From NCBI RefSeq assembly GCF_001006045.1, contig NZ_CP011267.1, positions 1,054,001 to 1,118,000 on the forward strand: 64,000 nucleotides of DNA, in the 5' to 3' direction. Shown one piece after another: positions 24,526 to 39,312 of the stretch. Each line of letters opens with the position of its first letter. Position 1 is the first letter of the stretch. Both the position numbers and the translations under genes were made by a program. This DNA is from Geoglobus ahangari. GTDB lineage: Archaea > Halobacteriota > Archaeoglobi > Archaeoglobales > Archaeoglobaceae. The notes beneath the pieces were generated by a model, which searched no databases, was not told the DNA's origin, and worked only from the letters and a program-made list of their open reading frames with translations.

Positions 24526-27222
24526 ATGAACGTAACGAGAAGAGATTTTGTGAAATTGTGTGCCTTCGGAGCGATTTCTGCAGGGGTTGCAAGCAGGTAC
24601 TTCCAGCTCGCATCATCCCAGAGCGCTGGAAGCGACGAGATAAAGATGGTCAGATCCACCTGCTCTCCGAACTGCACGGGAGCGTGCGCGTATCATGCGA
24701 TGGTGTACAGGGGGAGAATAACCTCGCTGATTCAGGCTGCGGACTATCCTGAGTCCGACTACAACCCCAGAGGCTGTCTGAAGGGCCAGTCGATGGTCAA
24801 CCTGATCTATGGTCCAGACAGGCTGAAGAAGCCACTCATAAGGGTCGGTGAGAGAGGGGAGGGCAAGTTCAAGGCCGTCAGCTGGGATGAGGCTCTGGAC
24901 TACGCTGCGGAGAAGCTCGTTGAGGTGATGAAGAAGTACGGGCCTGACAGCATAGCGCTCTCGATTCAGGTTCCGGGAACAGGCTACGTGCACAAGGGAG
25001 CCGCGATAAGGCTCGCGAGCATGTTCGGCTGGAGCGTGCTGCACGGATACACGATGAACGGCGATCTGCCGGCGTTCTGGTCCCAGACGTTTGGAGTCCA
25101 GACCGAGGAGTTCGAGTCCCTCGAGTGGGTGAACTCGAGGTACATTGCCGTCTTCGGCTCGAACATCCTTGTTACGAGGCTGCCCGACGCCAAGTTCCTG
25201 AACATCGCCAAGGAGAGGGGCGCCAAGGTGATAATGATCGACATGAACTTCACCCCAACTGCGGCAAAGGCTGACGAGTGGATCCAGATCAACCCGTCTA
25301 CCGATGCGGCATTCGCTCTGGGAATTGCGAACGTCATAATCAACGAGAGGCTGTACGACGAGGACTTCATAAAGTCCTACACGGACATGCCGATTCTCGT
25401 CAGGCTGGATAACCACAAGAGGCTCAGGGCTTACGAGGTCAAGGAGCTCAAGGATGAGGCTGAGAAACTGAAAAAGGAGATCCCCGAGTACAGAGATCTG
25501 TTCGTGGTCTACGACGTCAACGAGGGCAGGCTCAAGATCGTCAACCCGGAGACCCTCGAGAGGGACTTTGAACCGGCGCTTGAGGGAGAGTTCGAGGTTG
25601 AGCTCGTTGACGGAACCACTGTCAAGGTCAAGCCGGTCTTCCAGATGATCAAGGAGCTCGTCACGAACGAGTACACCCCCGAGAGGGTTGCGGAGATCAT
25701 CACACCGCCTGGCAGGGACAAGGCCGAGTACGCCCAGCTGGTCAGGAGAATCGCCAGAGAGATGGCCACAACAAAGCCGCTCCACATAATCTACGGTGCG
25801 AGCAACTACCAGTGGTTCCATGGCGATCTGAAGGGAAGGGCTCTCGCCCTGATCGTCGCCCTGACCGGGAACATCGGCAAGCCGGGTGCCGGAATCTCGA
25901 CCTATGCGGGACAGTTCAAGATTCGCTGGCCGCTCGGCATGTGGTGGCTGTTCAAGGGCAGGAAGACCAACTGGGTTACATACCTGCTCTGGATGAACAA
26001 GGAGTACAGGCAGAGCGAAGAGTTCAAGAAGTACAACCGCGAGACCCCGTATCCGAAGAACGATGTCAAGGCCTTCGTGTTCGGGTGGAACAACCCGTTC
26101 GACCAGCACAACATGGCCAACAAACTCAAGGAGATGGCCAAGTCCGGAGAGCTGGAGTTCATCCTCGCGATAGACTTCCAGGCCACAACTTCAACCAAGT
26201 GGGCGGATGTTGTCCTTCCGGGTGTTGCCTGGTATGAGAAGTACGAGCTGACCGCCACGATCCTGCACCCGTACGTCCAGATGCAGCAGCCGGCCATAGA
26301 GCCACTGTTCGAGTGCATGCCCGAGATCTGGATATTCAAGGAGCTGGCGAAGAGGATGGTGGCGAAGTGGAATGACGAGGAGCTAAAGGCTCAGATCGCT
26401 GAGTTCTACCCAGACCCGGCCCTCTTCGAGAAGGAGGAGAACGCGAGGAAGAACGGAACTTGGAGCCTTAAGCTCGCGAGGGAGATAGCCCACGAAGCAT
26501 CCCTCAAGGCAACCGAGCTCATGCTCGGCAAGCACGAGCTCACAAAGGGCATAACCCTCGAGAGGCTGCTGAAGGAGGGAGCGATCAGGCTCAACTTGCC
26601 GACTCCAGACAAGAGGCAGATCCCGTTCTGGGAGCAGATTCACGAGAAGAAGCCGTTCCCGCCACCGTCATTCCCAGCACCGCTCGCCAAGACGGCGAGG
26701 TTTGTGAAGTCGGGTAGGATTGAGTTCTACAAGGAGGAGGACGTGTTCATAGACTTTGGAGAGACCCTGCCGGTGCACAAGGATCCGTTTGTCGATACGG
26801 AGTACAAGGTCAACCCACAGGCCAAGAACAAGTACAAGTACGCCTTCATAACGAGAAACGCCCTCTACAGGGTGCACTCAACGCACAGCAACAACATAAC
26901 GATGCTCGAGCTCCAGGACTTCAGGCCGAGGGTCTGGATGAACCCCGAAACTGCGAAGGAGAAGGGAATCAAGCCCGGAGATCTGGTGGAGGTCTACAAC
27001 GACAGGGGCAAGGTGAGGGGCTACGCGGTCATAGACCCCGGAATCCACCCGAGGGTCATCATCTTCGAGCAGGGCTGGTGGAGCAGGTATCTCAGGGGCG
27101 ACTCCTATAACACGTTGACTTTCCCGTGGATCAAGGCGGTGCACCTCGCCTACTTCGTGCCGGGAATCTGGGAGCCCACGACGGCATGGAATGAGTGCGC
27201 GTGTGATGTTAGAAAGGTGTGA
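24526..27222 (+). CDS. Tat-exported molybdopterin oxidoreductase, catalytic subunit (DMSO reductase family, type II-like)
   Basis: The 898-residue protein starts with a Tat signal (TRRDFVKLC, then a hydrophobic stretch), so it acts outside the cell. C46-x3-C50-x3-C54-x29-C84 binds a [4Fe-4S] cluster. GDLPAFWSQTFGVQTEE (Asp180) matches the region that gives the Asp ligand of molybdenum in type II enzymes such as NarG, perchlorate, selenate and ethylbenzene oxidoreductases. The C-terminal molydop-binding domain starts near residue 760. The substrate cannot be read from sequence: nitrate, (per)chlorate, sulfur oxyanions or an organic compound are possible. The ribosome site GGAGGTGA is strong. 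Confidence 0.9.
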   Translation: MNVTRRDFVKLCAFGAISAGVASRYFQLASSQSAGSDEIKMVRSTCSPNCTGACAYHAMVYRGRITSLIQAADYPESDYNPRGCLKGQSMVNLIYGPDRLKKPLIRVGERGEGKFKAVSWDEALDYAAEKLVEVMKKYGPDSIALSIQVPGTGYVHKGAAIRLASMFGWSVLHGYTMNGDLPAFWSQTFGVQTEEFESLEWVNSRYIAVFGSNILVTRLPDAKFLNIAKERGAKVIMIDMNFTPTAAKADEWIQINPSTDAAFALGIANVIINERLYDEDFIKSYTDMPILVRLDNHKRLRAYEVKELKDEAEKLKKEIPEYRDLFVVYDVNEGRLKIVNPETLERDFEPALEGEFEVELVDGTTVKVKPVFQMIKELVTNEYTPERVAEIITPPGRDKAEYAQLVRRIAREMATTKPLHIIYGASNYQWFHGDLKGRALALIVALTGNIGKPGAGISTYAGQFKIRWPLGMWWLFKGRKTNWVTYLLWMNKEYRQSEEFKKYNRETPYPKNDVKAFVFGWNNPFDQHNMANKLKEMAKSGELEFILAIDFQATTSTKWADVVLPGVAWYEKYELTATILHPYVQMQQPAIEPLFECMPEIWIFKELAKRMVAKWNDEELKAQIAEFYPDPALFEKEENARKNGTWSLKLAREIAHEASLKATELMLGKHELTKGITLERLLKEGAIRLNLPTPDKRQIPFWEQIHEKKPFPPPSFPAPLAKTARFVKSGRIEFYKEEDVFIDFGETLPVHKDPFVDTEYKVNPQAKNKYKYAFITRNALYRVHSTHSNNITMLELQDFRPRVWMNPETAKEKGIKPGDLVEVYNDRGKVRGYAVIDPGIHPRVIIFEQGWWSRYLRGDSYNTLTFPWIKAVHLAYFVPGIWEPTTAWNECACDVRKV

Positions 27223-27233
27223 GGTGAGTGCAG

Positions 27234-27983
27234 ATGGTGAGGTACGGCATGGTTATTGACCTCAACCGCTGCATAGGCTGCAGGAGCTGTGCCGTGATCT
27301 GCAAGATGGTCAACGCCCAGCCACCGGGCACATGGTGGCAGAGGGTCGAGACCGTTGGCTCGAAGGAGCACATGGTTCCAGTGGGAGAGTATCCTAACCT
27401 CTCTGAGGTCTTTCTGCCGGTTCCATGCCAGCACTGCGAGAACGCTCCGTGTGTGAAGGTGTGTCCTGTCGGAGCGACATGGCAGAGGGAGGACGGGCTC
27501 GTCCTCGTTGACTTCGAGAGGTGCATCGGTTGCAGGTACTGCATCACCGCCTGTCCATACGGAGTCAGGCAGTTCAACTGGCAGGACCCGGACGAGAACT
27601 TCAGGCAGGGGTTCGAGAGAGCAGGCTTCGACGAGAACTGGTTCGCGGACAAGGACTACAAGTACGGCTACCCGAAGGATCACAGAACTGAGGACGGAAG
27701 GCTGGTTTACACCAAGAAGAGGCCGAGGGGCGTTGTTGAGAAGTGCACGTTCTGCGTGCAGTTCGTTGATCAGGGCCTCGCTCCGGCATGCGTCAGGGGG
27801 TGCCCGGGGAACGCGAGAATATTCGGCGACCTTGATGACCCCAACAGCGAGATTTCGAAGGTTCTGAAGGACAGGTCTGCCTTCAGGCTGCTCGAGGACC
27901 TTGGCACCGAGCCCAAGGTGTTTTACATACCTCCTGCGAGGAAGGAGGGTAGAGGAGGTGTGAGGTATGAGAAGGAAATATGA
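27234..27983 (+). CDS. Four-cluster ferredoxin subunit of the molybdopterin oxidoreductase
   Basis: About 249 residues with four cysteine groups of the NrfC/DmsB/PhsB type: CIGCRSCAVIC, CQHCENAPCVKVC, CIGCRYCITACPYG and CTFC...ACVRGCP. It passes electrons between the membrane subunit and the catalytic subunit. The ATG at 27234, 6 nt after GAGGTGA, is preferred to GTG 27228. It has no signal peptide and is probably exported together with the Tat-bearing partner. The 3' end overlaps the NrfD gene by 17 bp. Confidence 0.93.
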   Translation: MVRYGMVIDLNRCIGCRSCAVICKMVNAQPPGTWWQRVETVGSKEHMVPVGEYPNLSEVFLPVPCQHCENAPCVKVCPVGATWQREDGLVLVDFERCIGCRYCITACPYGVRQFNWQDPDENFRQGFERAGFDENWFADKDYKYGYPKDHRTEDGRLVYTKKRPRGVVEKCTFCVQFVDQGLAPACVRGCPGNARIFGDLDDPNSEISKVLKDRSAFRLLEDLGTEPKVFYIPPARKEGRGGVRYEKEI

Positions 27984-29232
27984 TCTTGCGATGGGAGTAC
28001 TCGGAGTACTCGCGATAATCGGAATAGTGGCGTTCATCTACCAGCTCCAGAAGGGACTCATACTGACCAACATGAGGAACCCGTTCTCATGGGGACTCTA
28101 CATTGCCATGTGGGCATTCTACGTCGGTACAGCAGCCGGTGGTCTTGTTGTTTCATCGGCAATAAACATCTTCGGTGTCAAGCAGCTCAAGCCGATAGCT
28201 CCGGTTGCCTCGCTCTCAGCGTTCATCTTCGCTGTCGCGGCAATGATCATGGTTCTGCCCGACATCGGAAGGCCGGACAGGATATTCAACATGTTCCTCT
28301 ATCCGAACCCCAAGTCGCTGCTTCCCTGGGACTTCCTCGTCCTCTCGACCTACGCATTCCTCTCTGCAGTCTACACGTACGTGCAGCTCGAGCCGAGGAT
28401 CGCTGAGAGGGGAATCAGCCTTCCGCTCGTTGGCACGATCCTGAAGAAGCCCAACCTCACGTCAGAGCAGCTCGAGATGCTGAGGAGGAAGTCGGAGAGA
28501 AGGGCTAAGATGCTCGCGCCGATAGCGCTGCCGTTCGCCATCCTCATACACACAGTCACCGCATGGGTTCTCGCGACCCAGCTCTCGAGGCCATGGTGGT
28601 ACGGAGGTCTGCTTGCACCAACGTTCATCGCCGCAGCTCTCACAGCCGGACCTGCGGTCGTGATAATCGCGTCCCTGATAGTCTACGGGTTCAAGGACGA
28701 GTTGAAGCCGACCTACAGGCTTCTTGCGAAGATCTCTGCATTCTCTGCCGTGGCGCTGCTCTTCATGTACTACAACGACTTCTTCATCAGGCAGTGGTGG
28801 GACAACGGCAAGGAGTATGACGCGCTCATGCTCGTCTTCAGGGACTACCTGCACATACACGCCATCGAGGCGATATTCCTGCTTGCAGGCATCATCATCC
28901 TCGCGAAGAAGTACGACAGCGTTCAGGGGCTCGTTGCCGGAAGCCTCGCAGTCAACATAGGTATCCTCGCGCACAGGTACCTGCTTATCCCTCCAGCATA
29001 CAACCTGATCCCGTTCAGGGTGCCGGTTGTCATGGCCGGCGAGTCATTCGAGTGGCAGTATCCAATAGCCGTCGGAGAGGTCAGGGGAACCCTCTTCAAC
29101 CCGCAGCCGATCTTCGTCTCCTACTGGAACTACGTCCCATCGCCGGTTGAGATAGCAATAACCGTCGGAGTGTTCGCATTGATATCCTTCGTCTTCCTCG
29201 GACTGCTGAGGGCGCTGCCTGTGAGGGAATGA
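27967..29232 (+). CDS. NrfD-family membrane subunit
   Basis: The 421-residue protein has 9-10 hydrophobic helices and the NrfD/PsrC pattern: NPFSWGLYIAMWAFYVGTAA near residue 40, LPDIGRPDRIFNMFLYPNPK near residue 98, HTVTAWVLATQLSRPWWYGG in the middle, and AHRYLLIPPAYN near the end. It exchanges electrons with the menaquinone pool for the Fe-S subunit. A charged cytoplasmic loop (about residues 155-180) separates the two halves. It is followed 1 bp later by the chaperone gene. Confidence 0.93.
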   Translation: MRRKYDLAMGVLGVLAIIGIVAFIYQLQKGLILTNMRNPFSWGLYIAMWAFYVGTAAGGLVVSSAINIFGVKQLKPIAPVASLSAFIFAVAAMIMVLPDIGRPDRIFNMFLYPNPKSLLPWDFLVLSTYAFLSAVYTYVQLEPRIAERGISLPLVGTILKKPNLTSEQLEMLRRKSERRAKMLAPIALPFAILIHTVTAWVLATQLSRPWWYGGLLAPTFIAAALTAGPAVVIIASLIVYGFKDELKPTYRLLAKISAFSAVALLFMYYNDFFIRQWWDNGKEYDALMLVFRDYLHIHAIEAIFLLAGIIILAKKYDSVQGLVAGSLAVNIGILAHRYLLIPPAYNLIPFRVPVVMAGESFEWQYPIAVGEVRGTLFNPQPIFVSYWNYVPSPVEIAITVGVFALISFVFLGLLRALPVRE

Positions 29233-29233
29233 G

Positions 29234-29707
29234 ATGAACGAGAAGTTCAGATTTTTTTCCCTTGTTTTTTCCTACCCTTCCGAAAAGACGCTCGGGGAGA
29301 TTGAGGCTCTCGCGTCTCACCTTCCGGAGTATGCCCACCTCGTTGAAAGTCTGAGGTCTCACACGCTTGAGGAGCTTCAGACTGAGTACACGAGGCTATT
29401 CGTGACCGATTTTCCCACGCTGACCTGCCCTCCCTACGAATCCTACTACCGCGAGGGCTCTCTATACGGGAACGCGAGCATAGAGGTGGAGGACATCTAC
29501 AGGAACCACGGGCTCGAGTACAGCTTCGAGGGTGAGCCGCCAGACCACATAAGCGTCGAGCTGGAGTTCCTCGCCCTCACGGGGGACGAGGAGTTCGCGA
29601 GAAGGATGAAGGAGTGGGTCTTCGAGTTCACGGAGAGGGTCAGGAAGAACTCGGGGATTTACGGGCCTTTCGCCGAGGAGCTGGAGAAGCTGCTGAAGGA
29701 GTTCTGA
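29234..29707 (+). CDS. TorD/DmsD-family assembly chaperone
   Basis: The 157-residue, helix-rich protein has the family's features YTRLFVTDFPTLTCPPYESY and DHISVELEFLALT (ExxF/L region). Such chaperones bind the Tat signal of a molybdoenzyme and keep it unexported until the cofactor is inserted. As the last gene of the operon it is expected to serve the catalytic subunit encoded at 24526. The oligo-T stretch after the stop (29732-29736) may end the operon. Confidence 0.88.
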   Translation: MNEKFRFFSLVFSYPSEKTLGEIEALASHLPEYAHLVESLRSHTLEELQTEYTRLFVTDFPTLTCPPYESYYREGSLYGNASIEVEDIYRNHGLEYSFEGEPPDHISVELEFLALTGDEEFARRMKEWVFEFTERVRKNSGIYGPFAEELEKLLKEF

Positions 29708-32594: not shown

Positions 32595-34842
<2,248 letters not shown>

Positions 34843-34934: not shown

Positions 34935-36122
34935 TTATGCCGTCTCAGCCCTCTCTTCCCACGGCGGCAGTATCTTCACGAGCACGTAGAGTATCACCAG
35001 CGGAACCACCATTATCGCCGCGGCTATCGAGGCACTCTCTGGGCCGAGCAGCGGCATGACGTAGTAGCTGAAGCCCCTGAAGGTCTTTGACAGTATCTGC
35101 CCGCCTATGACCACGTTCCACCTCATCGCGAACACGCCTACCAGCGTGAGAATCGCGGACACTGTGTACACAGCGACCCTCGCCCTGTCCGGCATCCTGA
35201 ACACCTTTGCCACGGCTATCATCGCGACGGGCACAATGGCTCCGACAATCACCTGCACGACTATCATGCTGAAGAACAGCTTCTCGTTTATCAGCGCCAG
35301 TATTGCCTCGAAACCCTCCTCCCTCGTGTAGAAGACGTGGCTGAACTCCACGAACTCGAGGCCGAGGTCGAGGATGTAGGAGTAGAGCAGGTAGCTGGCG
35401 AGCTTGTCAACGCACCTCACGTCCGGAGAGACACCCCTGATGACTGAGCTTATGACGTAAATCGCGAGCACCAGCGCAATTCCAGAAACCATCGCCGAGA
35501 ACAGGAAGATTATGGGCATCAGCGGGGAGCTCCACCACGGGTTCGCCTTCACGCTGCCGAATATGAACCCGACGTATCCGTGCAGGAATGCCGCTGAAGG
35601 CAGACCGATCACAGTTATGACATTCACTATCTTCTCGTCCCTCCTCGTTGCGCTGTCGCTTATGTCGTAGTCTCCGAGGGTGAGGATCCTGTAAATCGCG
35701 CCCCTGATTCCTCTCCTCTCCCTCGCCCACGTCACTATGTCCTTCCTGTAGTCGAAGTATATCTCGATGAGAAGCACGACGAGCAGGTACCATGCGTAGA
35801 CGAACCCGAACATTGCCATCGCTGAGGATGTGTTTGGCGTGAACATTATCTCCAGAGCTCTCTCTGGGTGTCCGAGGTGGGCGATGAGCGGCATCGGTGC
35901 GGTTATCAGAAACGCGAGTGCTGTGAGCAGGGCGAGCCTGTAGGTGGGTTTGACCTCCTCGACCCTGAATATCCTCTCAAGCGAGGCGACTATGAACGCT
36001 CCGGCGACGAGCCCTGTTATGTACGGGTACACGGCGATCAGCACGCTCCAGTATATCTCGACCTCGTTGGGGTAGATGAACCCCTGCACGTGCCTGAGCG
36101 CTATTTCGAGGATGTCGCTCAT
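34935..36122 (-). CDS. NrfD-family membrane subunit of the octaheme cytochrome module
   Basis: The 395-residue protein has about ten helices: NEVEIYWSVLIAVYPYITGLVAGAF, then TAPMPLIAHLGHPERALEI (the conserved quinone-site region of NrfD/PsrC), NPWWSSPLMPIIFLFSAMVSG, and GGQILSKTFRGFSYYVMPLLG. It resembles the HmeB/DsrP branch and would exchange electrons with menaquinone. It is the last gene of a four-gene operon and starts one codon after the Fe-S gene ends. Confidence 0.92.
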   Translation of the reverse strand: MSDILEIALRHVQGFIYPNEVEIYWSVLIAVYPYITGLVAGAFIVASLERIFRVEEVKPTYRLALLTALAFLITAPMPLIAHLGHPERALEIMFTPNTSSAMAMFGFVYAWYLLVVLLIEIYFDYRKDIVTWARERRGIRGAIYRILTLGDYDISDSATRRDEKIVNVITVIGLPSAAFLHGYVGFIFGSVKANPWWSSPLMPIIFLFSAMVSGIALVLAIYVISSVIRGVSPDVRCVDKLASYLLYSYILDLGLEFVEFSHVFYTREEGFEAILALINEKLFFSMIVVQVIVGAIVPVAMIAVAKVFRMPDRARVAVYTVSAILTLVGVFAMRWNVVIGGQILSKTFRGFSYYVMPLLGPESASIAAAIMVVPLVILYVLVKILPPWEERAETA

Positions 36123-36123
36123 G

Positions 36124-36864
36124 TCAGCGCACCTCCGAGTCTATGCCTATGTAGAAAACCCTCGGCTTTGTTCCCTGCTCCGGCTTCAGCACGGAGACGC
36201 TGTTCTCCTCGAGAACCCTAAGGATCCGCTCATCGTCCTCCCTGCCGAACATCCTCGCTCCCGTTGGGCATGCCATCACACACGCAGGCTTGTACCCCTT
36301 CGTTATCCTGTGGTAGCACCACGTGCACTTGTCTGCCGTGTTCCTCCTGCTCTCCCTCGGCCCGTCCCTCGGGTAGAGGTATCTCGCGCCATACGGACAG
36401 GCCTGAATGCAGTACCTGCACCCTATGCAGTACTTCTCGTCCACCAGCACAACTCCATCCGGGGTTCTGTAAGTTGCGCCAACGGGGCACACCTGAACGC
36501 AGGGAGGGTCTTCGCAGTGGTTGCAGAGCTTCGGAACGAAGTAGCTTTTCGCGACCTCGTCCTCGCTGTAGATGTTCGGAAAGCCGTCGAACCCTCCGTT
36601 GGGGGAGTCAACCTTCAGATCCTTCTCTCCCTTGAGCCATACGTACCTCTCGACCCATGTCCTGAAGTAGTACGGCTTCAGGGGAACCTCGTTCTCTATC
36701 TTGCAGGCCCTCACGCACCTGCCGCAGCCTATGCACTTCCTGACGTCGACCACGAAAATGTAGCCTGTTGCTCTGCCCTCAGCCTCCTCCCCCCTCGCAA
36801 GCCTGAACCCGATGATTCCCGATGCGATGGCTGACGAGGCAATCAGGAACTTTCTCCTATTCAT
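36124..36864 (-). CDS. Four-cluster Fe-S subunit of the octaheme cytochrome module
   Basis: The 246-residue protein starts with a signal-like stretch (NRRKFLIASSAIASGIIGF), a twin-arginine-type export signal that suggests a location outside the membrane. Four cysteine groups follow: CIGCGRCVRAC, CNHCEDPPCVQVCPVG, CIGCRYCIQACPYG and CTWC...ACVMACPTG. It is of the DsrO/HmcB/NrfC type and would carry electrons between NrfD and the cytochromes. It lies 1 bp from each of its neighbours. Confidence 0.92.
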   Translation of the reverse strand: MNRRKFLIASSAIASGIIGFRLARGEEAEGRATGYIFVVDVRKCIGCGRCVRACKIENEVPLKPYYFRTWVERYVWLKGEKDLKVDSPNGGFDGFPNIYSEDEVAKSYFVPKLCNHCEDPPCVQVCPVGATYRTPDGVVLVDEKYCIGCRYCIQACPYGARYLYPRDGPRESRRNTADKCTWCYHRITKGYKPACVMACPTGARMFGREDDERILRVLEENSVSVLKPEQGTKPRVFYIGIDSEVR

Positions 36865-36865
36865 A

Positions 36866-37330
36866 TTACACCACCGGGTTGTGGGGATTGTGACACCTCG
36901 TGCAGTTCCACATCTCCTCTCTACCGTGCTCTACTGAGATCTGCGGGAATGACTCTGGCTTGCTCGGGCTGGTGGCGTGGCAGCTCAGGCAGAAGTCCGT
37001 CATGGTGGGGTACGCGTACGGGCTCAGAAACTCATCCTTGGCCGAGTGGTTTTTCGGATCGGCAACGTGGGCTTTCAGGAGTCCGTGACAGCTTGTGCAC
37101 GCTATCCTCCTGTGCTCCCCCACGCTCCAGTCCACGTACTCATTCACGTGACAGTTGAAGCACTCGTAGTTCTCTCCAACCTTGGTCTTCAGGCTCTCTA
37201 TCTCCCCGATAGACGCGGCCCTGTAGTGGCCGAGCTCGCCGAAGGTATCCGGGACAAAGACGCTTCTGGCTATGAAGAACACTGCAAGCCCCAGTATGTA
37301 CAGAAGCACGACTCTGGTGGTGACTTTCAT
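36866..37330 (-). CDS. Tetraheme c-type cytochrome, membrane-anchored
   Basis: The 154-residue protein has one N-terminal helix (about residues 6-24, an uncleaved anchor or signal) and four haem sites: CFNCH, CTSCH, CLSCH, CTRCH. Extra His residues near each can give the second haem ligand. It is NrfH/HaoC-like in role, handing electrons to or from the octaheme partner, but its sequence is not clearly in the NapC/NirT family. It is encoded between the octaheme cytochrome and the Fe-S protein. Confidence 0.88.
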   Translation of the reverse strand: MKVTTRVVLLYILGLAVFFIARSVFVPDTFGELGHYRAASIGEIESLKTKVGENYECFNCHVNEYVDWSVGEHRRIACTSCHGLLKAHVADPKNHSAKDEFLSPYAYPTMTDFCLSCHATSPSKPESFPQISVEHGREEMWNCTRCHNPHNPVV

Positions 37331-37371
37331 GGCCCTGCCCTCTCTCTAAAAAATTTGGGGGAAGGTGTGGC

Positions 37372-38937
37372 TCAGGCTGAACCCCGCAACCTTCCTGCGA
37401 GGGCCAGTGCTGCGAGCACTGCGAAGGATCCGGCCGTCAGCTCCACGAACCTCACGTTCTTCGGAAGGCTGATTGTCTGGGACGTGGTGGCATCTGCGAC
37501 TCCCTGCGCGACCACAGCATTGTTGGCAGGTGGTGTGAGCGGTGCGGTGCTCGAGTCAGGTGCGGTGGACAGTGCCGGGACCTCTCCCCTGATCCTCTTC
37601 TGCGTCTCGTACCAGTCTATCATCCTTCCGAGCTTGTCCATCACGGTGTCAACGGCTCCCATCCAGTGCGTGTAGTCCGGTCCCATCATCGAGGCGCCCA
37701 TTCTCCACCTTCTTCCCTCGTGGTGCCAGATGTAGTACCACATCATCTCCGGGAACTCGTCTATCGGATTGCTCGGGTCGGCAAGCCCCTCGTCGTATAT
37801 CCTCTGCAGCAGGTCTTTCGCGTACTTTGCAGTCTTGTCGTAGTCGGCGAGCACCTTCTCGTAGCTCTCGAAGTACCCGTCAACCCAGTTGGGGCTGTGA
37901 CACGCCTGACAGATCTTCTTCATCCTCTCCCTGTTCTCGTTGGCGAGCTTCTCGTCTGGGGTGTACCCAACAGCCTTGTTGGGGTTGCTGCTCTGGTAGG
38001 TGTTGAACGGCCCCTGAATCTCCCACTTGAGCATGGCTCCAACGTCGTGCGTGCTCTGGACTATCACCTTGCCAGATGAGTCGGCGATTCCACCCATGTG
38101 GCAGACGCTGCACGTCGGTGAGGAGAAGTCAACACCGACCTTCCACGGCTTTGCCTCCCAGTTCCAGTTCTCCTCGTCGGCCATGTACCTCGCTCCGTGG
38201 TGGCTGCTCTCGTATATCTCGATCTGCGGGTGGTCGTATCCAAGGTGGCACTTTCCGCAGGTCTCAGGCATTCTCGCCTCCTTTATGCTGAACTGGTGCT
38301 GCGTGTGGCAGGAGGCACAGCTTCCGAGGCTACCGTCGGGGTTTATTCTGCCTATGCCGATGTTCGGCCACCCCTGCAGCTTCTCCCCGTCGTAGTAAAC
38401 GTAGCTTCCGTGGCACTCCATGCATCCGAGCACCTGATTCTCGTGGTTTATCTCGTCGAGAAGCCCTGTCTTTGCAAATATTCCGCTTGCCGGGTAGAGG
38501 GGCGTTACCTTGTCCCTTATGTAGTCTCTCGGCGGGTTCTGCCTTGCGGTGTTCGGGTCGAGCGGGTTCAGACCCTGCGATGTCATGGCCTTGTACCACG
38601 GCATGAGGGGTCCGTTGATGGCGGCAAAGGCGTGCTTGCTCTTTGAGAAGGTCTCGTACTCGTACTCGTGGCACTGTGCACACTTCTTCGGAGAAACGAC
38701 CGGGGTTATCCTGTATCCGTGGTGGTCCTCGCCATACTCGTCATCTCCAGCCTTGTGGCAGACGTAGCACGTCACTCCGTAGTCCCCGTGCTTGCTCTTT
38801 TCCCAGTCCTTGACGATGTTCGGTGTTTGCTTGTAGTGGCAGGCAATGCACAGTTCCTCTGCACTCGCTGGAATGGCGAGCAGGGCTGCGATTGCCACTA
38901 TTATTCCCACTAACAGCCCGGGACGTTTCATGTTCAT
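37372..38937 (-). CDS. Octaheme cytochrome c of the hydroxylamine oxidoreductase (HAO) family
   Basis: The 521-residue exported protein (signal peptide ending ASA-EE near residue 26) has eight CxxCH motifs. Near residues 400-425 it has WHHEGRRWRMGASMMGPDYT-HWMG, the HAO-family signature, in which some members carry a Tyr cross-linked to the catalytic haem. A hydrophobic helix near the C-terminus (FVELTAGSFAVLAALALAGR) would anchor it. HAO-like proteins either oxidise hydroxylamine or hydrazine or reduce nitrite. The NrfD/Fe-S/tetraheme partners suggest a quinone-coupled system, with nitrite or hydroxylamine reduction as my preferred guess. It is the first gene of the operon. Confidence 0.88.
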   Translation of the reverse strand: MNMKRPGLLVGIIVAIAALLAIPASAEELCIACHYKQTPNIVKDWEKSKHGDYGVTCYVCHKAGDDEYGEDHHGYRITPVVSPKKCAQCHEYEYETFSKSKHAFAAINGPLMPWYKAMTSQGLNPLDPNTARQNPPRDYIRDKVTPLYPASGIFAKTGLLDEINHENQVLGCMECHGSYVYYDGEKLQGWPNIGIGRINPDGSLGSCASCHTQHQFSIKEARMPETCGKCHLGYDHPQIEIYESSHHGARYMADEENWNWEAKPWKVGVDFSSPTCSVCHMGGIADSSGKVIVQSTHDVGAMLKWEIQGPFNTYQSSNPNKAVGYTPDEKLANENRERMKKICQACHSPNWVDGYFESYEKVLADYDKTAKYAKDLLQRIYDEGLADPSNPIDEFPEMMWYYIWHHEGRRWRMGASMMGPDYTHWMGAVDTVMDKLGRMIDWYETQKRIRGEVPALSTAPDSSTAPLTPPANNAVVAQGVADATTSQTISLPKNVRFVELTAGSFAVLAALALAGRLRGSA

Positions 38938-39312
38938 AATCTCATGTGAAGAGGATTTAAAATTTACGAATATATCCTAAATTATCGCCGTTAAATTACG
39001 TCAATGACGAAAAAATTTTGGTGTCATCATTAAACAACGTTAAATAATTTTGAGCTGGCAACCGACAGGGAGCTGGAAATGATAAACTCTATTCACCCTA
39101 TTTTCTGAGCCATATCTGAGGTCTGCAGGGTCGTTTTGTGCCAGAATATATGCTGACAGAGAAATCATTAACGTTAACAACGTTAAAAAGTTTCCGCCCA
39201 CGTCGGTAATGAATTCTATTTGCTCTGCCATCATCATGATAAATCGTTCGCAATTGCCATGATGATTTAACGTTATCCAGCAAACTATATATCCTCCCTG
39301 CCAACTTAAATC
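38938..39312. promoter_or_regulatory. Divergent control region between the octaheme cytochrome operon and ftr
   Basis: This 375-bp A/T-rich gap holds two promoters: GGATATATTC on the minus strand (38967-38976), about 30 bp before the cytochrome ATG, and AACTATATATCC (39282-39293), 20-30 bp before ftr ATG 39313, which suits a leaderless ftr mRNA. The palindromic word AACGTTA occurs four times: 39036-39042, 39170-39176, 39179-39185 and 39269-39275; at 39168-39177 it is the 10-bp palindrome TTAACGTTAA. A 65-codon minus-strand frame (39040-39237) crosses the middle but has no ribosome site or well-placed TATA box. I see no RNA gene. Confidence 0.45.

Follow-up and report, generated by a model that had tools for sequence, protein, structure and literature searches.

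The window analysed here is a stretch of 64,000 nucleotides from the genome of the thermophilic, iron-reducing archaeon Geoglobus ahangari 234T (NZ_CP011267.1, positions 1,054,001 to 1,118,000), which consists of a single contig of 1,770,093 bases. Four consecutive genes lie on its minus strand, and encode, in the order of transcription, an octaheme cytochrome, a tetraheme cytochrome, an iron-sulfur (Fe-S) protein, and an NrfD-family membrane protein. The octaheme protein, GAH_01297 (38937-37372), has 521 residues, with CXXCH motifs at residues 30, 57, 86, 172, 207, 227, 276, and 343, a signal peptide, and a C-terminal hydrophobic segment, and is thus predicted to be exported and anchored at its C-terminus. 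The tetraheme protein, GAH_01296 (37330-36866), has 154 residues, four CXXCH motifs, and an N-terminal transmembrane segment. The third gene (36864-36124) encodes an exported four-cluster ferredoxin of 246 residues resembling NrfC, TtrB, and DsrO, and the fourth (36122-34935) encodes a membrane quinol dehydrogenase of 395 residues. By gene order, these two presumably correspond to GAH_01295 and GAH_01294; the GAH_01297 tag was matched by heme number and mass in the published Table 6, which for GAH_01297 and GAH_01296 gives no functional account beyond heme count and annotation (PMC4600277). The gaps between the four open reading frames are 41, 1, and 1 bp, indicating an operon rather than a chance arrangement. 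The original prediction, made from the sequence alone, had described exactly such an operon, and all four genes match the corresponding profiles.

The same intact operon is found in Ferroglobus placidus (G023) and in three Archaeoglobus genomes (sp. UBA234, JdFR-27, and G013), and a metagenome-assembled genome (MAG) of Ferroglobus carries it up to the point where the contig ends. This conservation likewise argues against chance, and the absence of the joined set from relatives, which the original prediction had named as evidence that would speak against it, was not borne out. Among 55 Archaeoglobaceae genomes, five others (G025, G026, G029, G031, and G033) have an octaheme protein of about 50% identity with no adjoining cassette.

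To which family does the octaheme protein belong? It matches Pfam PF13447 (Multi-haem_cyto) with E=3.6e-24 (85.9 bits, cut-off 21.9). In a search of solved structures, the closest relative by sequence is 4qo5 (E=5e-56), which we confirmed, using the genome of Ignicoccus hospitalis, to be the octaheme cytochrome of that organism (IhOCC). Reductive HAO, HAO, and HDH follow at 1e-15 to 1e-22 (6h5l, 4n4j, 6hif, and 1fgj). Foldseek searches with a heme-free AlphaFold model (pLDDT 73) gave 11 matches with E<=0.001, all of which are HAO, IhOCC, or HDH, while NrfA and the octaheme nitrite reductases appeared only at E>1. The TM-scores are 0.37 or lower (0.37 for 4qo5), probably because the model lacks the hemes; the matches therefore support the family and not the geometry, and the model is too poor for describing the active site. 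No chain of octaheme tetrathionate reductase or MccA is present among the significant sequence or fold matches, and we rejected the identity with octaheme tetrathionate reductase, a placement that the original prediction had named as one that would count against it. These comparisons place GAH_01297 among the HAO-type octaheme cytochromes (OCCs), apart from the tetrathionate reductases. A tree of 57 rows groups the four operon OCCs in a single clade (100/100), nested in a larger clade (92/92) with Igni_1359-type proteins of Thermoproteota and proteins of Pyrohabitans, Bathyarchaeota, and bacterial MAGs. IhOCC lies in a separate clade of seven rows (100/100), which does not contain GAH_01297. 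The G. ahangari genome also encodes a second, divergent octaheme protein, GAH_00817 (L040:6626-7963, at about 692 kb of the genome), which is 26% identical and stands by itself on a long branch of that tree.

Next, we examined the residues that distinguish oxidative from reductive enzymes. To locate the cross-link column, we used the chain numbering of the Kuenenia locus L205 protein, which matches 4n4j exactly, together with the 6hif and 4fas chains aligned alongside it. The known cross-linking tyrosines, which we take to be Y451 of kustc1061, Y462 of HDH, and Y467 of the Nitrosomonas europaea enzyme in the literature numbering, fall at the T-Y of QTYGNG, DATYSDG, and GGWTYTEG, respectively, in the chain numbering. 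Among 115 OCCs aligned with L-INS-i and E-INS-i, this column is Trp in 102, Phe in 7, and Tyr in 4, the last comprising only the Tyr-type Kuenenia proteins. GAH_01297 has Trp425 there in both alignments. The original prediction had counted the Tyr as present, on the basis of the DYTHW motif; this residue, Tyr422, never falls in the cross-link column, and its own column is almost always occupied by Tyr, Trp, or Phe. A third alignment, with FFT-NS, places a gap there and leaves the Tyr column unaligned, and the conclusion therefore rests on L-INS-i and E-INS-i. When the alignment is anchored on the preceding Ala-x-Met stretch, a one-residue shift puts His424 at the site, and still not Tyr422; consistently, a His at the cross-link site has been reported for reductive enzymes (PMC12758564). 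With Trp425 or His424 alike, the mark of the oxidative enzymes is absent from the aligned sequence. GAH_01297 shares this lack of a cross-linking Tyr with the reductive OCCs (IhOCC, HAOr, and epsilon-HAO types), and it keeps the distal Asp-His pair (D235/H236), as do HAO, HDH, and HAOr.

The motif that the original prediction had read as an HAO signature, WHHEGRR...DYTHW, has a different meaning. WHHxGRR is conserved in 92% of the collected OCC set, while the WHH position is CY in kustc1061, GY in HDH, and LF in IhOCC, and is absent from the HAOr-like proteins. As judged from the alignment, WHHxGRR...DYTHW is the hallmark of a distinct OCC clade, and HAO, HDH, and reductive HAO lack it. A DYTHW-type Tyr is thus no evidence for an oxidative HAO.

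These results bear directly on the idea that the protein is an oxidative enzyme, a hydroxylamine or hydrazine dehydrogenase feeding menaquinone. Its membership in the HAO superfamily and the conserved Asp-His pair would suit such a role, but the cross-link position lacks Tyr in both accurate alignments, the HDH model NF052343 scores only 72.7 bits against a cut-off of 900, and the low potential of menaquinone and the reductase-type cassette fit reduction better. We consider this explanation highly improbable, and rejected the identity with oxidative HAO or HDH. The direction of the reaction had been left open in the original prediction; the missing cross-link and the type of the cassette both favor reduction, although they do not prove it.

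The other three proteins resemble an electron-input cassette. The tetraheme protein matches PF14537 (E=2e-7) and is conserved at 47-68% in the operon relatives. In the tetraheme tree, the OCC-linked copies form one group (100/100), split from the other copies. The Fe-S protein matches PF13247 (E=1e-25), and its 16 invariant Cys residues correspond to four [4Fe-4S] clusters. It begins with the Tat-type motif RRKFL, and therefore is probably exported via the Tat route. The fourth protein matches PF03916 (E=8e-40) and has about eight transmembrane segments by hydropathy. These matches and the adjacency of the genes support the proposal that an archaeon couples an HAO-superfamily octaheme protein with an NrfD/Fe-S quinol module. 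The scores against the NCBIfam models remain below the curated cut-offs: the Fe-S protein reaches 194 bits for TtrB (cut-off 416), 176 for DsrO (200), and 134 for NrfC (378), and the NrfD-family protein reaches 78 bits for TIGR03148 (348) and 39 for DsrP (350). Therefore, these scores are not informative about the substrate.

The ranking of TtrB and DsrO as the best models for the Fe-S protein nevertheless raises the idea of a reductase of an oxidised sulfur compound, such as tetrathionate, sulfite, or polysulfide, with a multiheme catalytic subunit. Octaheme enzymes are promiscuous, and Slobodkina et al. offered tetrathionate or polysulfide as the substrate for a similar bacterial locus (PMC5276818). 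However, TtrB, DsrO, NrfC, and NrfD all fall short of their cut-offs, the octaheme protein has no significant match to octaheme tetrathionate reductase or MccA chains, and Geoglobus species do not use sulfate, sulfite, or thiosulfate (PMC4600277). We regard a sulfur reductase as quite unlikely.

How does the operon compare with known systems? The roles of the Nrf proteins in bacteria are established, and the NrfABCD set of gammaproteobacteria corresponds to the G. ahangari operon one-to-one and in the same order: a catalytic multiheme protein, a small multiheme donor, a four-cluster Fe-S protein, and NrfD. The archaeal set differs in that an OCC replaces the pentaheme NrfA and a membrane tetraheme protein replaces NrfB, and in the low scores of the NrfC and NrfD models. 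Profile searches of the G. ahangari genome found no NrfA (PF02335) and no hybrid-cluster protein (Hcp) above the cut-off. IhOCC is the best solved relative by both sequence and 3Di comparison, and is likewise an archaeal, membrane-associated octaheme protein that lacks the cross-linking Tyr. It differs in its clade, in having D-V instead of D-H and LF instead of WHH, and in being encoded by a gene that stands alone (Igni_0955). Purified IhOCC is reported to reduce nitrite and hydroxylamine, and to have no cross-link (Parey, 2016). In Nautilia profundicola, the epsilon-HAO of the reverse hydroxylamine:ubiquinone reductase module (reverse-HURM) is also an OCC without the critical Tyr, with a proposed role in quinol-linked nitrite reduction (PMC3701875), but there the quinol oxidase is the NapC/NrfH-type CycB and the Fe-S/NrfD pair is absent.

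Similar in gene content, by its published description, is the TDIS_0606-0609 locus of Thermosulfurimonas dismutans, which encodes a HaoA homologue, NrfD, a 4Fe-4S protein, and a transmembrane cytochrome c (PMC5276818); it is bacterial and lies inside a Nap cluster. Slobodkina et al. (2017) described such a locus in both Thermosulfurimonas and Dissulfuribacter and considered either nitrite or tetrathionate/polysulfide as the substrate, and a comparable cluster has been published for Pyrodictium delaneyi (Pyrde_0485-0496; PMC8105010). The four-gene idea itself is thus not new, and the arrangement is less singular than the original prediction had implied.

The P. delaneyi cluster agrees with the pattern that we found in Thermoproteota. 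The Igni_1359-type OCCs belong to the same larger clade as GAH_01297, with WHH, D-H, and DYxHW, and some of them stand beside a tetraheme/Fe-S/NrfD set; they differ in being longer and in having a DsrP-like NrfD. The OCC adjoins the cassette in three loci (L223, L224, and L227), lies 5 kb from it in L230, where the tetraheme gene is off the contig, and lies 10-13 kb away in four genomes (G578, G579, G582, and G586). The NrfD of these cassettes is only 20-21% identical to GAH_01294, and the pairing of OCC and cassette therefore probably arose twice. For Ignicoccus, Pyrolobus, G591, G452, and G631, no such cassette was seen around the OCC in the stretches examined. The Pyrohabitans OCC adjoins a different quinol module, a NapG/NapH pair; in Candidatus Pyrohabitans (L046:4973-10879), it is located between this pair, an FrhB-like protein, and a partial membrane protein of the COX1 family (PF00115).

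The original prediction had called the module self-contained, and thereby overlooked a paralogous cassette in the same genome. A search with the tetraheme protein revealed a second tetraheme/Fe-S/NrfD set at about 240.4-242.9 kb, followed by a gene for a 12-heme cytochrome (GAH_00283 to GAH_00286; L234:8436-12108, genome 240.4-244.1 kb). Between the two cassettes, the Fe-S proteins are 76% identical and the NrfD proteins 70%, and the tetraheme proteins 35%, suggesting a common quinol half with a partner-specific tetraheme adaptor. F. placidus, Geoglobus acetivorans, and G031 also hold this cassette, and in both Geoglobus genomes the 12-heme gene adjoins it; in the G. acetivorans copy, open reading frame picking did not resolve the Fe-S gene. 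The location of this cassette beside the 12-heme cytochrome is a new observation of this analysis.

The same observation brings in another explanation, that the OCC is an electron-transfer cytochrome, a conduit carrying quinol electrons outward for Fe(III) or mineral respiration, and not an N-oxide enzyme. The 12-heme GAH_00286 beside the near-identical Fe-S/NrfD pair was proposed, by mass, as an outer-surface Fe(III) cytochrome by Manzella et al. (PMC4600277), several operon carriers are iron reducers, and the P. delaneyi octaheme Pyrde_0496 is present in nitrate- and ferrihydrite-grown cells alike (PMC8105010). However, the OCC retains the active-site residues of HAO and has a C-terminal anchor, it is missing from the four cytochromes matched to outer-surface bands (PMC4600277), and its relatives occur in MAGs of Planctomycetes, Nitrospirae, and Spirochaetes. 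We therefore consider a conduit function unlikely.

The best explanation, which we hold with roughly even confidence, is an NrfABCD-like menaquinol:cytochrome reductase in which the OCC takes the place of NrfA and probably reduces nitrite, hydroxylamine, or NO. N-oxide reduction is suggested by the superfamily and the missing Tyr, and the electron route by the cofactors, topology, and gene order. NrfD would oxidise menaquinol and hand the electrons to the exported Fe-S protein, whose four [4Fe-4S] clusters would relay them via the membrane-anchored tetraheme protein to the OCC. The tetraheme protein would serve as the adaptor between the Fe-S protein and the OCC, in a place like that of NrfB. 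At its heme-4 site, the OCC may then reduce a small N-oxide, be it nitrite, hydroxylamine, or NO, in the direction of ammonium, and this could serve either respiration or detoxification. The Fe-S/NrfD half would be exchangeable, since a near-identical pair would serve the 12-heme cytochrome, and the tetraheme protein would be the partner-specific part.

Several points weigh against this N-oxide reductase. TtrB is the top-scoring model for the Fe-S protein, the sister cassette stands with a presumed Fe(III) cytochrome, and IhOCC belongs to another clade and lacks the Asp-His pair. The structure model is only moderate (pLDDT 73, with a TM-score to 4qo5 of only 0.37), and we know of no assayed member of this exact OCC clade. 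F. placidus makes N2O, and nitrate and nitrite are not acceptors for G. ahangari (PMC4600277), so that ammonification is not the obvious role. The same paper reports no nrf genes in Geoglobus.

The region upstream of the operon contains a candidate operator. The AT-rich intergenic region 38938-39312 (375 bp, 37% GC) has four AACGTT palindromes (39036-39275), a number that none of 5000 dinucleotide shuffles reached. The extended form TAACGTT occurs nine times in the window against 2.3 expected, and six of the nine are in this region. In relatives, a regulator gene is divergent to the OCC gene: winged-helix plus PAS in Ferroglobus, G. acetivorans, and JdFR-42, and HTH_10 in Archaeoglobus (L029:9339-9986, L034:8338-8976, L075:7170-7820, L030:8320-8865, L031:8119-8673, and L032:7863-8408). 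None of these adjoins the OCC gene in G. ahangari, and because the regulators differ among the relatives, a single regulatory signal was not obtained.

Downstream of the operon lies katG, for a catalase-peroxidase (32595-34816, minus strand), which is split by a frameshift near 34056 and is either a pseudogene or a sequencing error; it is intact (729-745 residues) in two relatives (L033 and L034). The G. acetivorans OCC has a similar neighborhood, next to katG, DUF72, and DUF554 genes. Direct orthology with this OCC was rejected, as it falls in a different clade and lacks an adjoining cassette. Elsewhere in the window (24526-29707, plus strand) lies an operon of the type II DMSO-reductase family, called NarGHIJ by Manzella et al. 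(PMC4600277). Its membrane subunit is of the NrfD type (DsrP 152 bits) and its alpha subunit scores below every curated cut-off, which makes the name nitrate reductase doubtful on sequence grounds.

A wider picture is possible, although we offer it tentatively and with considerable doubt. The Archaeoglobaceae may use one Fe-S/NrfD quinol module with exchangeable terminal multiheme proteins picked by the tetraheme adaptor, the OCC for N-oxides and the 12-heme cytochrome for extracellular Fe(III). With the OCC, the module would be an energy-conserving archaeal equivalent of Nrf ammonification that evolved in the absence of NrfA, and Thermoproteota would have assembled a second one independently. 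Few enzymes of hyperthermophilic archaea have been assigned to nitrite or hydroxylamine reduction, and the annotators of F. placidus and G. ahangari report no nrf genes; the operon provides a concrete candidate together with its electron input. Moreover, the paralogous cassette, with the same quinol half and another adaptor and terminal cytochrome, offers a direct way to test how partners are selected in iron-reducing archaea.

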